A stretch of 64,000 nt of DNA. Source: Streptococcaceae bacterium ESL0687. GTDB lineage: Bacteria; Bacillota; Bacilli; Lactobacillales; Streptococcaceae. The stretch's first letter is position 1. Each line of letters begins with the position of its first letter. Shown here one piece after another: positions 1 to 6,193 of the stretch. A program made the translations under genes and the position numbers. Under the pieces are notes generated by a model. That model made no database searches. It was given only the letters and a program-made list of their open reading frames with translations, and had not been told where the DNA came from. The stretch lies in NCBI GenBank assembly GCA_029392475.1, contig CP113940.1:1240001-1304000 (forward strand), read 5' to 3'.

Positions 1-478
1 GTCTAGCCTTAAAAAATTTTTTCATGATTGTACTACATTCTTCTTCGAGTAGACCAGATTCCACCTGCACCCTGTGGTTAAGTCTTGGATCTTCTAAAAT
101 TTGATAAAGGGAAACTGCTCCCCCAAATTTTTGATTAGTTGCACCAAAATATACCTGAGGAATCCTTGCCATACCAATTGCTCCTGCGCACATGACACAA
201 GGTTCAATCGTTACAAACATGGCACAGTCAGTTAGGCGCCAATTTCCTATAAACTCGTTGGCAAGATTAATGGCACATACCTCTGCATGATCAACTGCCT
301 TTTGTTGCAATTCCCTTTGGTTAAAGGATCTGGCTATAACTTTCCCCTCTTTTACAATTACAGCACCAATTGGAACCTCTTCATTATCAAAGGCCTTTTG
401 GGCCTCAAGGAGGGCCTCATGCATGTAATATTCTTTTTCTTCTTGGCTAAAAACTAGCTCTTTATCATCAGATTTCAT
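1..478 (-). CDS. tadA: tRNA-specific adenosine deaminase TadA (3' end cut by window edge)
   Basis: The product deaminates adenosine to inosine at the wobble position of tRNA-Arg(ACG). The visible 159 residues start at an ATG at 478 and contain the zinc motifs of the cytidine/deoxycytidylate deaminase fold: HAEVCAI (His-Ala-Glu, with the catalytic Glu) near residue 65 and EPCVMCAGA, with both zinc cysteines, near residue 95. The C-terminus and stop lie beyond position 1. The start overlaps the end of the upstream hydrolase gene by 11 bp, so the two are probably translationally coupled. HAEVC in place of the common HAEI is a conservative change. The assignment is secure from the motif pair and the tRNA-deaminase type C-terminal half. 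Confidence 0.93.
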   Translation of the reverse strand, partial: MKSDDKELVFSQEEKEYYMHEALLEAQKAFDNEEVPIGAVIVKEGKVIARSFNQRELQQKAVDHAEVCAINLANEFIGNWRLTDCAMFVTIEPCVMCAGAIGMARIPQVYFGATNQKFGGAVSLYQILEDPRLNHRVQVESGLLEEECSTIMKKFFKAR

Positions 479-1244
479 TAAAATCCCATTTTTTGTGAGG
501 AGCTGCAAGTTCAACTGGAATTGATCCAGCCTCATCTTGTGCCTCCTGTAAAAGACTTTCTAAATAATTTTCCTTAGCAATATGTTCTGGCGCGTGTTGC
601 GGAAGGTGGGTTAAAACCAAAAGATCAACAGAGGCCTCTCTAGCAATTTTTCCTGCTTCATAGCTTGTAAGATGGGCCGGGTGATGCTCCATACCCTTAA
701 AGAGATAAACATCTGCTAAAAACATCTGTGCATCCCGTGTAAAATCAACAAGCTCATCAAACCAACCAGTATCACCTGTAAAGACTAAAGTCTGACCAGT
801 CTTTCGCTCAACTATTCTCATTGCGTAGCAGACAACTGGGTGGACTGTTTTTATAAAGGTAATATCAAAGGGCCCAATCTTTTGCAGACCTGAAACATTA
901 TAAGCATGACCTTCAGAAACATCCTTTAAAGTCAGACGCTTAAAACTTACAGGGTCCTCATCATGGCCATAAATATCAAGAATTTTTCCGTCCCACTGAT
1001 TTTTTGGCCACAACTGGCGGTACTGCTGAAGTACACCTAAATCTGCAATATGATCCTGATGATAGTGGCTAATAATTACCGCATCAAGTTCTAATGGTGA
1101 TAGTTCATGTTCAAGTTCAGTAACAGCACGGCTTCCCGCATCAATCAAAAGATTAAAACCAGATTCACTAGTCAAAAGATAGCTGGTTGTCCCAGCATCC
1201 TTATAGGGATATCCTCCCCAACATCCTAAAGTCGTTAATTTCAT
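468..1244 (-). CDS. Metallo-beta-lactamase fold hydrolase, RNase Z/YhfI-like
   Basis: This is a 258-residue metal-dependent hydrolase. The HYHQDH motif (HxHxDH) near residue 60 and a later FTGDTGW segment with aspartate near residue 156 are the binuclear zinc site of the RNase Z-like branch. The N-terminal MKLTTLGCWGG is typical of YhfI-type proteins. The substrate is unknown, and tRNA 3'-end processing cannot be claimed because the family also contains phosphodiesterases. There is no signal peptide, so it is cytoplasmic. A strong SD (GGGAGG) precedes the ATG, and an extended -10 lies at 1279-1287. The gene is followed by overlapping tadA. Confidence 0.85.
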   Translation of the reverse strand: MKLTTLGCWGGYPYKDAGTTSYLLTSESGFNLLIDAGSRAVTELEHELSPLELDAVIISHYHQDHIADLGVLQQYRQLWPKNQWDGKILDIYGHDEDPVSFKRLTLKDVSEGHAYNVSGLQKIGPFDITFIKTVHPVVCYAMRIVERKTGQTLVFTGDTGWFDELVDFTRDAQMFLADVYLFKGMEHHPAHLTSYEAGKIAREASVDLLVLTHLPQHAPEHIAKENYLESLLQEAQDEAGSIPVELAAPHKKWDFNEI

Positions 1245-1278: not shown

Positions 1279-1287
1279 ATTATAGCA
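1279..1287 (-). promoter_or_regulatory. Extended -10 promoter of the MBL hydrolase-tadA unit
   Basis: Read on the minus strand, the sequence is TGC followed by a perfect TATAAT (1284-1279), about 35 nt before the ATG at 1244. The promoter sits directly after the terminator hairpin at 1292-1321, so the terminator's T-rich tail supplies the region just upstream of the -10 box. Confidence 0.7.
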
Positions 1288-1399
1288 AAATAAATACCCT
1301 TGGTCGCAACCAAGGGTATTTAAGGAGTTTTATGAAAAAGAAAAGTTTACTGATAATTAAATCAGTAGGATAAGTCGTATGTACGACTATTTAAGGGCT
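1285..1399 (-). ncRNA. Putative csRNA-like small RNA with anti-SD/anti-AUG linker
   Basis: This is a predicted transcript of about 115 nt with no plausible protein. Minus-strand order: -10 TATACT (1411-1406), inferred start near 1399, hairpin AGTCGTA/TACGACT (1388-1373), hairpin TACTGAT/ATCAGTA (1367-1348), an unpaired pyrimidine-rich linker (1347-1322), then a 13-bp terminator hairpin (1321-1292). The linker reads CUUUUUCAUAAAACUCCUUA. It is complementary to an SD (AAGGAG), a 5-nt spacer, AUG and the following AAAAAG. This layout and the CiaR-type repeat upstream match streptococcal cia-dependent small RNAs. Transcription is inferred, and no ciaRH genes are in the window. Confidence 0.68.
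1292..1321 (-). terminator. Intrinsic terminator of the small RNA gene
   Basis: A perfect 13-bp stem (1292-1304 with 1309-1321) with a 4-nt loop, followed on the minus strand by an ATTTTGC tail. It would also stop read-through from metI. Confidence 0.8.
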
Positions 1400-1405
1400 G
1401 AGGCT

Positions 1406-1438
1406 AGTATATAAATCAAACCTTAAAGAAACCTTAAA
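1406..1438 (-). promoter_or_regulatory. CiaR-type direct repeat and -10 box of the small RNA gene
   Basis: On the minus strand TTTAAG (1438-1433), five bases, TTTAAG (1427-1422), exactly ten bases, then TATACT (1411-1406). CiaR of streptococci is known to bind TTTAAG-N5-TTTAAG placed about 10 bp from the -10 box. No -35 hexamer is needed in that architecture. Binding by a CiaR homologue is inferred. Confidence 0.65.
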
Positions 1439-1542: not shown

Positions 1543-2226
1543 TCAGGCTTTCCCATTTTTACTGGCCAGTTTAATGGTTAAATTACCTATTAATTGGGTT
1601 ATAAAGACCAATAAAAGAATTATCAATAGTGCAACAAGAGTTACATCATTGTGATATCTTTGATATCCCTTAGAGATGGCAAGCTGGCCAAGCCCACCAC
1701 CACCTACTGCACCAGCCATTGCAGTAAGTCCAATTATTGAAATCATTGTGAAATTACAAGCCCTGATAATAGGAACAAGTCCCTCTCTCAAATAAACCCT
1801 GAAAATAATTCCTGAATCACTAACACCCATTGATTTTGCGGCTTCAACAACTCCTGGATTAACCTCCAAAAGGGCATTTTGAATTTGACGGGCAAAGAAG
1901 GGAACAGTCCCTACAACTAGCGGTACAATAGCAGCTGTTGTTCCAACAATTGTTCCAACAATAAGCCTAGTGAAAGGAAAAATTACAGCAAGTAAGATAA
2001 CAAAAGGGATACTACGCCCAATATCAACAATCTTATCTAAAATAGTATAGATTACCTTGTTCTCTTTAAGACCACCTTTGCCTGTAACTAATAAAATAAT
2101 TCCTAAAAGCAAACCTAAAATTCCAGCAATTAAGGCTGATACCAAGGTCATATAGATTGTCTCAAGACTTGCTTGAATAAAATCATCTGGAATCTGACTG
2201 GCATATGGAAAATACTTTTCGATCAT
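1543..2226 (-). CDS. metI: Methionine ABC transporter permease MetI
   Basis: This is the membrane subunit of the MetNIQ importer for D/L-methionine and probably its derivatives. It has 227 residues with about five hydrophobic segments. The EAA loop appears as EAAKSMGVSDSGIIFRVYLREG around residues 128-148, the coupling site for the MetN ATPase. Length and the N-terminal region before the first helix agree with MetI. It overlaps metN by 4 bp (ATGA), so it is the last, coupled gene of metQ-metQ-metN-metI. The probable small RNA gene lies downstream. Confidence 0.92.
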   Translation of the reverse strand: MIEKYFPYASQIPDDFIQASLETIYMTLVSALIAGILGLLLGIILLVTGKGGLKENKVIYTILDKIVDIGRSIPFVILLAVIFPFTRLIVGTIVGTTAAIVPLVVGTVPFFARQIQNALLEVNPGVVEAAKSMGVSDSGIIFRVYLREGLVPIIRACNFTMISIIGLTAMAGAVGGGGLGQLAISKGYQRYHNDVTLVALLIILLLVFITQLIGNLTIKLASKNGKA

Positions 2227-3308: not shown

Positions 3309-4142
3309 TTACTCCCAAGCTGGCAAGTCATTGCCACCAGACTCATCCTTGATAAGTCCTGCTATCTTATCAGTTTGATAGGCAGCTACAATCTTTTTGA
3401 AATCAGGATTTGTTTCATCCTTCTTTTTAACGGCAACTAGATTCTTATAAATCTCGCCGACTTTTGAAAGATTATCTGTATCCAGATAGATTGCATCCTC
3501 TTTTGGTTTAAGACCACTATCAACAGCATAATTGGTATTGATGACTGCTGCTGCAACATCCGGCAAGGCTGCTGGTGTTTGTGAGGCATCAATCTCTTTA
3601 ATGTCCACTTGTTTTAGGTAACTTTCAATGTCATTTTTACTTGGAGACGTCGGTGCATTGTCCTTAAGCTTAATTACATTAATAGCATCTAAAAGTTGAA
3701 GGGCACGACCACCATTTGTTACATCATTTGGGATAGCGATTGTATCTCCTGACTTAATGTCCTTATAGTCCTTAAGCTTACTTGAATATAGTCCCATAGG
3801 AGATACGTAAGTATAGCCTATTGACACCAAGTCTTGATTCTTTTCCTTGTTGTAGTTATTTAAAAATCCTACACTTTGAAAGGCATTTAAATCAAGACTT
3901 CCATCAGCTAAAGCATCATTTGGTGTATTGTAATCACTAAACTGCTTGACTTTAAGTTCAATATCTTGGTCCTTAAGGCTTTTGGCCACAGACTTCCAAA
4001 TCTTGTCTTCCACATCAGATACCACCCCTATAGTATATGATTTTTTCCCAGTAGAAGAGCTATCCTTCTGGTTTCCACAGGCAGTAAGACTAAAGAGAGC
4101 TAGCCCTGCCAGTAAAGTCCCCAGTAATTTTCCTTTTTTCAT
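3309..4142 (-). CDS. metQ: MetQ/NlpA family substrate-binding lipoprotein (second copy)
   Basis: This is an extracellular lipoprotein that delivers methionine to MetNI. The signal peptide ends in lipobox LTAC near residue 24 (FSLTACGN). The mature part is the NlpA/lipoprotein-9 fold, with conserved QFSDYNTPNDALADGSLDLNAFQ and IAIPNDVTNGGRAL segments. The ATG at 4142 is chosen over the one at 4148 because AAAGGG lies directly against the latter and about 6 nt from the former. It is very similar to the copy just upstream (4190-5020), so it is a tandem duplicate. It is probably transcribed from the promoter before the first copy. The ligand of either copy may differ (methionine, sulfoxide or peptide). 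Confidence 0.9.
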   Translation of the reverse strand: MKKGKLLGTLLAGLALFSLTACGNQKDSSSTGKKSYTIGVVSDVEDKIWKSVAKSLKDQDIELKVKQFSDYNTPNDALADGSLDLNAFQSVGFLNNYNKEKNQDLVSIGYTYVSPMGLYSSKLKDYKDIKSGDTIAIPNDVTNGGRALQLLDAINVIKLKDNAPTSPSKNDIESYLKQVDIKEIDASQTPAALPDVAAAVINTNYAVDSGLKPKEDAIYLDTDNLSKVGEIYKNLVAVKKKDETNPDFKKIVAAYQTDKIAGLIKDESGGNDLPAWE

Positions 4143-4168
4143 AATCATCCCTTTTCTATAATTTAAGC

Positions 4169-4193
4169 AACCTAATCAACCTAATCAACCTAT
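4169..4193. repeat. 9-bp tandem repeat between the two metQ genes
   Basis: AACCTAATC is present twice in tandem (4169-4177, 4178-4186) with a partial third copy (4187-4193) that includes the stop codon of the upstream metQ. It fills most of the 47-bp gap to the chosen metQ start at 4142. Confidence 0.85.
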
Positions 4194-5020
4194 TTCCAAG
4201 CTGGAATATCATTTCCATCGGTTTCTTCTTTGATTAACTCAGCTGTTTTATCTGTTTGATAAGCCTTAACAATTTTCTTGAAGTCTTCATTTGACTCATT
4301 TTCCTTCTTAACGGCAATAACATTTTTGTAAATATTACCAACTTTGGCAAGGTTATCTGTATCTAGATAAAGGGCATCTTTCTTAGGACTTAGACCACTA
4401 TCAACAGCATAGTTAGTATTGATAACTGCTGCAGAAACGTCAGGTAGGGCCGCTGGAATTTGAGAAGCATCAAGCTCTTTAATCGTTACGTCTTTTGTAT
4501 ATGATTCGATATCACTAGTAGTTGGTGAAGCTGGTGCATTAGATTTAAGTTTAATGACATTAATTGCATCAAGTAATTGAAGGGCACGGCCACCATTTGT
4601 TACATCATTTGGAATGGCAATTGTATCACCTGACTTAATATCTTTATAGTCTTTTAACTTGTCTGAATAAAGTCCTAGAGGGGAGATAATTGTGTATCCA
4701 ATTGCTACTAGGTCCTCATTTTTTTCCTTGTCGTAGTTTTCCAAAAAGGCTACGTGCTGGAAGGCATTTAAATCAATACTTCCGTCTGCAAGGGCATCAT
4801 TAGGTGTATTGTAATCACTGAACTGCTTAATTTTCAGATTGATTCCCTCATCCTCTAAGGTTTTAGCAACTGACTTCCAAATTTTATTGGCTGAGTCTGA
4901 AACAACTCCAACGGTGTAAGTTTTTTCTGTTGAAGAAGAATCTTTTTTTCCTCCGCAAGCGGTAAGAGTTAATAGGGCTGCTCCTGCAAGTAGGGCTGTA
5001 AATAATTTAAACTTTTTCAT
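4190..5020 (-). CDS. metQ: MetQ/NlpA family substrate-binding lipoprotein (first copy)
   Basis: This is the first gene of the methionine import operon, a 276-residue lipoprotein with signal peptide and lipobox LTAC near residue 22. The mature domain shares long identical stretches with the copy downstream, including the DAINVIKLK and ALPDVSAAVINTNYAVDSGL regions. An extended -10 (TGTTATCAT, 5068-5060) gives a short leader of about 35 nt with no riboswitch. SD AAGGAG lies at 5034-5029. Its start region (5009-5024) is perfectly complementary over 16 nt to the putative small RNA at 14394-14545, and over 8+12 nt to the one at 1285-1399. Confidence 0.92.
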   Translation of the reverse strand: MKKFKLFTALLAGAALLTLTACGGKKDSSSTEKTYTVGVVSDSANKIWKSVAKTLEDEGINLKIKQFSDYNTPNDALADGSIDLNAFQHVAFLENYDKEKNEDLVAIGYTIISPLGLYSDKLKDYKDIKSGDTIAIPNDVTNGGRALQLLDAINVIKLKSNAPASPTTSDIESYTKDVTIKELDASQIPAALPDVSAAVINTNYAVDSGLSPKKDALYLDTDNLAKVGNIYKNVIAVKKENESNEDFKKIVKAYQTDKTAELIKEETDGNDIPAWK

Positions 5021-6079: not shown

Positions 6080-6085
6080 TAAGAT

Positions 6086-6173
6086 ACACAAGGGGTACTA
6101 AGATTAAATTTCTAATTTTAGTTGAGATTCACCCTCAGAACCTGATACGGTTAATACCGTCGTAGGGATGTGT
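6086..6173 (+). promoter_or_regulatory. TPP (THI-box) riboswitch aptamer
   Basis: P1 is ACACA (6086-6090) with TGTGT (6169-6173). The conserved cores are AGGGGT (6091), TTGAGA (6122), ACCCTCAGAACCTGATA (6131-6147) and the pyrophosphate-sensing end TAATACCGTCGTAGGGA (6152-6168). A short variable P3 (TTAAATTTCTAATTTTAG) lies between. These match the TPP aptamer closely. Ligand binding should repress thiT. Confidence 0.95.
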
Positions 6174-6193
6174 CGCTAGAGATAGCCATACTC

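Follow-up and report, generated by a model that had tools for sequence, protein, structure and literature searches.

The closest described relatives of the element analyzed here are the cia-dependent small RNAs (csRNAs) of streptococci, for which published numbers are two to six per genome (PMC3091779, PMC8186281). In pneumococcus, comC is repressed by csRNAs that pair with its initiation region; changes in comC that disrupt this pairing relieve repression, and compensating changes in the csRNAs restore it (PMC4507080). The CiaRH system has been stated to be present in all streptococci and apparently absent elsewhere, Lactococcus being named (PMC3091779), and the 2021 csRNA inventory covers streptococci alone (PMC8186281). 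Our search of the openly accessible literature returned no description of csRNAs in Lactococcus or Floricoccus, nor of the wider range described below.

Here, we analyzed a locus in a 64,000-nt stretch of DNA (the window), where a first-pass annotation had proposed a csRNA homologue in a Lactococcus-like genome. Promoter geometry, an anti-SD/anti-AUG linker, a terminator, conservation, the presence of CiaR and CiaH and a 30/31 match to the streptococcal core all support the homologue, and we conclude that the element is very probably a csRNA gene whose product would act as a CiaR-activated, trans-acting repressor of translation initiation. The host is a member not of Lactococcus but of the genus that includes Floricoccus tropicus and F. 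penangensis. This genus is represented by four genomes, two of which match the records of F. tropicus DF1 and F. penangensis HibF3 locus by locus; the host is a smaller relative, with G003 (1.45 Mb) nearest to it. Floricoccus-like bacteria have been reported from Melipona stingless bees (PMC12157432).

The CiaR-type promoter and its probable regulator

Read directly from the sequence, the minus strand from 1438 to 1406 is TTTAAG-gtttc-TTTAAG-gtttgattta-TATACT, just as first annotated. The half-site spacing, the -10 element at 10 nt and the intact G of both half-sites are those of a csRNA promoter as set out in PMC3091779. When searched as a pattern, TTTAAG-N5-TTTAAG-N10-TANNNT occurred once in the 1,465,505-bp genome, and the reversed control did not occur. 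Loose half-site pairs, with up to two mismatches, were at chance level within the window (25 found versus 26 expected), so that it is the exact form and the spacing to the -10 element that carry the signal.

The genome encodes the CiaR homologue whose presence the earlier annotation had suggested checking. This protein is 78% identical to pneumococcal CiaR, and the next response regulator reaches 37%; the query was an S. pneumoniae R6-type sequence, and an S. pneumoniae record (L108) gave the same N terminus and helix. Its DNA-recognition helix, VVEVYISKLRKKL, differs from that of S. pneumoniae, VVEVYVSKVRKKL, by two conservative changes. CiaH is encoded alongside. Over almost the whole protein, F. 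tropicus CiaH shares 45% identity with its pneumococcal counterpart; the same ciaH gene is present in the window's genome, and the CiaH proteins of streptococci span 47-86% (PMC3091779).

Further CiaR-type boxes were found in the host genome, the genes behind them being annotated by eye. Weaker ones lie upstream of a PrsA-like gene and an LtaS-like gene, and others precede ciaRH and htrA, which are known CiaR targets in streptococci. Overlapping tandem half-sites of the CiaR type were seen upstream of an LtaS-like gene at G000:C1:1067503 (L029). Another box, at G000:C1:120543, was weighed as a possible second csRNA but dismissed, as it has neither linker nor terminator. This box (L007, 1500-1533; also L132, L134 and L254) has zinc-ABC-transporter-like genes on one side and the 3' end of an RluA-family gene on the other. 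In the L. garvieae group (L255-L257), a csRNA-like gene is located at the RluA 3' end and adjoins a zinc-binding-lipoprotein-like gene. The Floricoccus zinc-locus box, which is without an RNA body, is perhaps a decayed csRNA copy.

Architecture and conservation of the predicted RNA

Features of the locus, with positions in the window
Feature	Position	Strand	Basis
Upstream CiaR half-site TTTAAG	1433..1438	-	direct reading; intact in 4/4 genomes of the genus
Downstream CiaR half-site TTTAAG, 5 nt from the upstream one	1422..1427	-	direct reading; full pattern unique in the genome
-10 element TATACT, exactly 10 nt past the second half-site	1406..1411	-	direct reading
Predicted small RNA, ~113 nt	1287..1399	-	start predicted 7 nt past the -10 (rule of PMC3091779), end predicted at ~1287; fold z = -6.5; 90-95% identity in 3 other genomes
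Hairpin 1, 6 bp	1373..1388	-	predicted fold; base pairing conserved across all four genomes
ATCCTA, first part of the csRNA-conserved box (ATCCTAAAAC in streptococci)	1366..1371	-	core comparison
17-nt self-complementary insertion, hairpin 2, splitting the csRNA box	1349..1365	-	core alignment and fold; predicted stem 1348-1367, 7 bp
Anti-TIR linker AAACTTTTCTTTTTCATAAAACTCC	1324..1348	-	complementary to SD, AUG and first codons; invariant in 4 genomes
Intrinsic terminator, 14-bp stem and U-rich tail	1287..1322	-	stem 1322-1291; between-species stem variants keep pairing
metI, methionine ABC permease, upstream neighbour	1543..2226	-	BPD_transp_1; order kept in 4/4 genomes
Metallo-beta-lactamase-fold hydrolase, downstream neighbour	468..1244	-	order kept in 4/4 genomes
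metQ (NlpA lipoprotein), candidate target, best of 44 window genes	4190..5020	-	predicted pairing energy -19.2

The predicted fold consists of three hairpins (-33 kcal/mol, z = -6.5), and none of 200 shuffles was equally stable. Two hairpins precede the terminator, as had been described, and the terminator stem comprises 14 bp rather than the 13 bp first given. This terminator is the only one found within 1200-1700. As is the rule for csRNAs, the element is intergenic and its intrinsic terminator lies less than 250 nt from the -10 element (84-115 nt past it).

The sequence complementary to the SD and the start codon is found, again as in csRNAs, in an unpaired region: the linker is largely single-stranded in the predicted fold (mean probability of ~0.89), with CAU and CUCC unpaired. 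The first description of an unpaired linker thus holds for most of the segment but not for UUAAA, a part of the anti-SD next to these motifs that sits in the terminator stem. Likewise, the plus strand at 1321-1340 is indeed TAAGGAGTTTTATGAAAAAG, so that the linker is the reverse complement of an SD, a spacer and AUG as had been claimed, but the spacer between AAGGAG and ATG is 4 nt long and not 5.

In all four genomes of the genus, the element is found between metI and the metallo-hydrolase gene in the same order, just downstream of metI as first described. The three other genomes carry it at 90-95% identity, each with an intact CiaR promoter. The first-pass annotation had made its reading depend beforehand on the conservation of linker and repeat in relatives; the linker proved invariant, as did ATCCTA and most of the stems. 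All base pairs are kept in the four genomes, and the differences in the terminator preserve pairing. One pair changed on both sides, a covariation score that shuffles reach as well. The covariation signal is almost absent within the genus because the four sequences are too similar, and this thin covariation among four closely related sequences is a point against the csRNA reading.

The hydrolase gene starts ~46 nt past the terminator stem on the same strand. Together with the conserved gene order, this would be in line with a cis-acting leader, in which the hydrolase operon would be transcribed from the CiaR promoter upstream of it and the terminator would serve as an attenuator instead of ending a free-standing RNA. 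We consider such a leader improbable. Indeed, in other genera csRNA-like genes that share the core have unrelated neighbours and end at a terminator, and the linker carries an anti-SD and an anti-AUG with no leader ORF. Additionally, the hydrolase may have its own promoter, as judged by eye from an extended -10-like sequence, TGCTATAAT, past the terminator in the host genome.

Homology to the streptococcal csRNA core

We searched 297 Streptococcaceae genomes for a CiaR promoter followed by TCAT...CTCC; the reversed control gave one match in all 297. The recurrent streptococcal core recovered by this search was ATCCTAAAACTTTTCTTTTTCATAAATCTCC. Aligned with it, the Floricoccus RNA reads ATCCTA-[CTGATTTAATTATCAGT]-AAACTTTTCTTTTTCATAAAACTCC, in which 30 of 31 positions are identical and a single self-complementary 17-mer interrupts the match. 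The alignment scored 47.2, a value that none of 5000 shuffles attained; among 2282 window tiles, the runner-up scored 34.4. Apart from the 17-nt hairpin insertion, the RNA thus contains the conserved core sequence of csRNAs. The insertion was seen only in Floricoccus and is 16 nt long in G003. A 30/31 core with one clean hairpin insertion therefore argues for a csRNA in which a hairpin has come to interrupt the conserved box, and, judged from the sequence, the core is homologous to that of streptococcal csRNAs and not merely analogous.

The Rfam csRNA model speaks against this, since the element scored 22.7 on RF02379 against a gathering score of 57, while five pneumococcal csRNAs reach 66-104. 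However, the streptococcal csRNA-like loci L038 and L279, which have CiaR promoters, gave no match to the Rfam csRNA model even at an E value of 0.5. RF02379 hence does not span the family, and a low score need not count against membership. At gathering scores, the Rfam scan of the window detected no csRNA; a TPP riboswitch (6081-6185, plus strand, 73.2 bits) was the only family recovered. Permissive matches (an L31-Coriobacteria leader on the plus strand, Ref84, rli22, PyrR and others) fell below threshold and were discarded; they reflect either generic features or the terminator hairpin together with AAGGAG.

An anti-TIR-type small RNA of independent origin, without CiaR control, would also score below the csRNA threshold, and Ref84 did score slightly better, though again sub-threshold. 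This origin would also fit the existence, in F. tropicus and F. penangensis, of a linker copy that lacks a CiaR box. It is nevertheless very unlikely, given the perfect CiaR promoter in 4/4 genomes and a core match that includes ATCCTA, which lies outside the anti-TIR segment. The linker copy in question is a second, exact one of 29 nt with its own terminator (near 1501-1529 in F. penangensis L046 and F. tropicus L047) and is possibly a paralogous sRNA under another promoter; no copy of this type was found in the window's genome. Finally, a plus-strand mini-gene (TAAGGAG-TTTT-ATGAAAAAG) encoding the short peptide MKKKSLLIIKSVG has its own SD, an ATG and 13 codons in three genomes but was rejected as scarcely credible, because a 1-nt deletion in the hairpin-2 loop of G003 shifts the frame (MKKKSLLIINQ) and leaves the RNA structure unchanged, no promoter-like site lies just upstream on the plus strand, and the same letters recur in streptococcal csRNAs on the other strand, downstream of CiaR promoters.

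Proposed mode of action and candidate targets

As a csRNA gene, the element would be activated by phosphorylated CiaR binding to TTTAAG-N5-TTTAAG at a -10-only promoter, yielding a stable RNA of ~113 nt that ends at its own terminator. The unpaired UUUUCUUUUUCAUAAAACUCC linker would pair with several mRNAs at the SD, the start codon and the first codons, typically AUGAAAAAG, and block ribosome binding, by which CiaRH would down-regulate mostly envelope and transport genes in trans.

Complementarity of the Floricoccus linker extends over AAGGAG-N4-AUGAAAAAGAAAAG. Over 44 window genes, its predicted pairing energy with initiation regions was -11.9 kcal/mol; shuffled linkers gave -8.6 (0/100) and internal coding sequence gave -6.8. 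Part of this advantage is generic anti-SD pairing. Targets were sought with patterns on the genome and among the window genes. The predicted candidates are metQ of the adjacent operon, with at least one copy scoring -18.4 or better in each of the four genomes, and, from the genome-wide patterns, a 106-aa secreted protein with no assigned family (-26.3, also in G003) and a PdxK-like kinase (-23.5). Because complementarity to AUGAAAAA-type starts is generic, each of these predictions taken singly is weak. Two adjacent metQ-like genes are located upstream of metN-metI in the window (3309-5020, minus strand), and F. tropicus and F. penangensis have three.

csRNA-like genes beyond Streptococcus

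CiaR orthologues of ~75-84% identity, with CiaH adjoining, are also encoded in Lactococcus and Pseudolactococcus-type genomes (L. petauri CiaH, 45% identical). Genes with the csRNA-like sequence pattern (CiaR promoter, CCyAAA box, TCAT...CTCC and terminator) were found in Lactococcus, for example in L. garvieae (L257), L. petauri (L272), L. formosensis (L255) and L. ileimucosae (L256). Pseudolactococcus-type csRNA-like loci (L260-L263, L273-L275) include those of L. laudensis (L262), L. raffinolactis (L263), L. insecticola (L261), L. hodotermopsidis (L260) and L. chungangensis (L273). Genomes of the Streptococcaceae genus g5 hold at least 11 csRNA-like genes apiece; these are nearly identical, and every one has a CiaR promoter of its own (G007: L200-L206, L208, L209, L211 and L212; G016: L199, L214-L219 and further places). 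Outside the Streptococcaceae, the pattern occurred in five genomes (G404, G357, G371, G439 and G076; L325-L330), all of family f3 of the Lactobacillales, and gave no match in the other sampled Lactobacillales families, with none for the reversed control. By eye, the f3 csRNA-like genes with a CiaR-type promoter resemble Rfam Ref84.

As far as sequence can tell, CiaRH and csRNA-like genes outside Streptococcus are in conflict with the published streptococcal-only view. The taxonomic range of csRNAs found here appears to be unreported, and the hairpin insertion adds a structural twist. The probable Floricoccus csRNA points to a stress-controlled RNA system of greater age and wider spread than the literature describes. 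We give an even chance to a broader hypothesis, in which CiaRH-csRNA would be an old Lactobacillales module, kept in Floricoccus, Lactococcus, the Pseudolactococcus type and the csRNA-rich g5, with csRNA-like genes in a second family. Lineages would have reshaped it by hairpin insertion, copy-number change and movement or loss of copies, as at the zinc-uptake locus (a csRNA in Lactococcus, only a box in Floricoccus), and in Floricoccus it would feed back on the adjacent methionine-uptake operon. If csRNAs are family-wide, harmless lactococci and Floricoccus would offer models of a regulator so far examined largely in pathogens, and comparing the genera could tell the invariant pairing core from the variable hairpins and thereby predict conserved targets.

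Comparison with known small RNAs

Like the Streptococcus csRNAs or Ccn sRNAs (RF02379; PMC3091779, PMC8186281), the Floricoccus element is intergenic and has the CiaR promoter TTTAAG-N5-TTTAAG-N10-TATAnT, and its predicted length of 113 nt is within their range of 51-202 nt (PMC3091779, PMC8186281). Ref84 (RF02846), an Enterococcus sRNA, aligns below threshold over CUUUU...UUUUUCAU...ACUCCUU plus the terminator, and its 23.5 bits against a gathering score of 52 make it a lead and not a membership. The csRNA2-type loci of S. pneumoniae 19F (L331) and the csRNA-like locus of G059 (L038), a genome we took to be a Streptococcus, share the linker AAACTTTTCTTTTTCATA and the CiaR promoter with our element. 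In these loci, however, the TCCTA box and AAAC adjoin directly, and the 5' hairpin and terminator sequences are unrelated. What the element has in common with streptococcal csRNAs is a 5' hairpin, ATCCTA...AAACTTTTCTTTTTCATAA...CTCC, a terminator and an unpaired anti-SD and anti-AUG. Unlike them, it occurs outside Streptococcus, as one copy found in its genome instead of the two to six of streptococci, and its ATCCTA/AAAC box, uninterrupted in other csRNAs, is broken up by a 17-nt hairpin.
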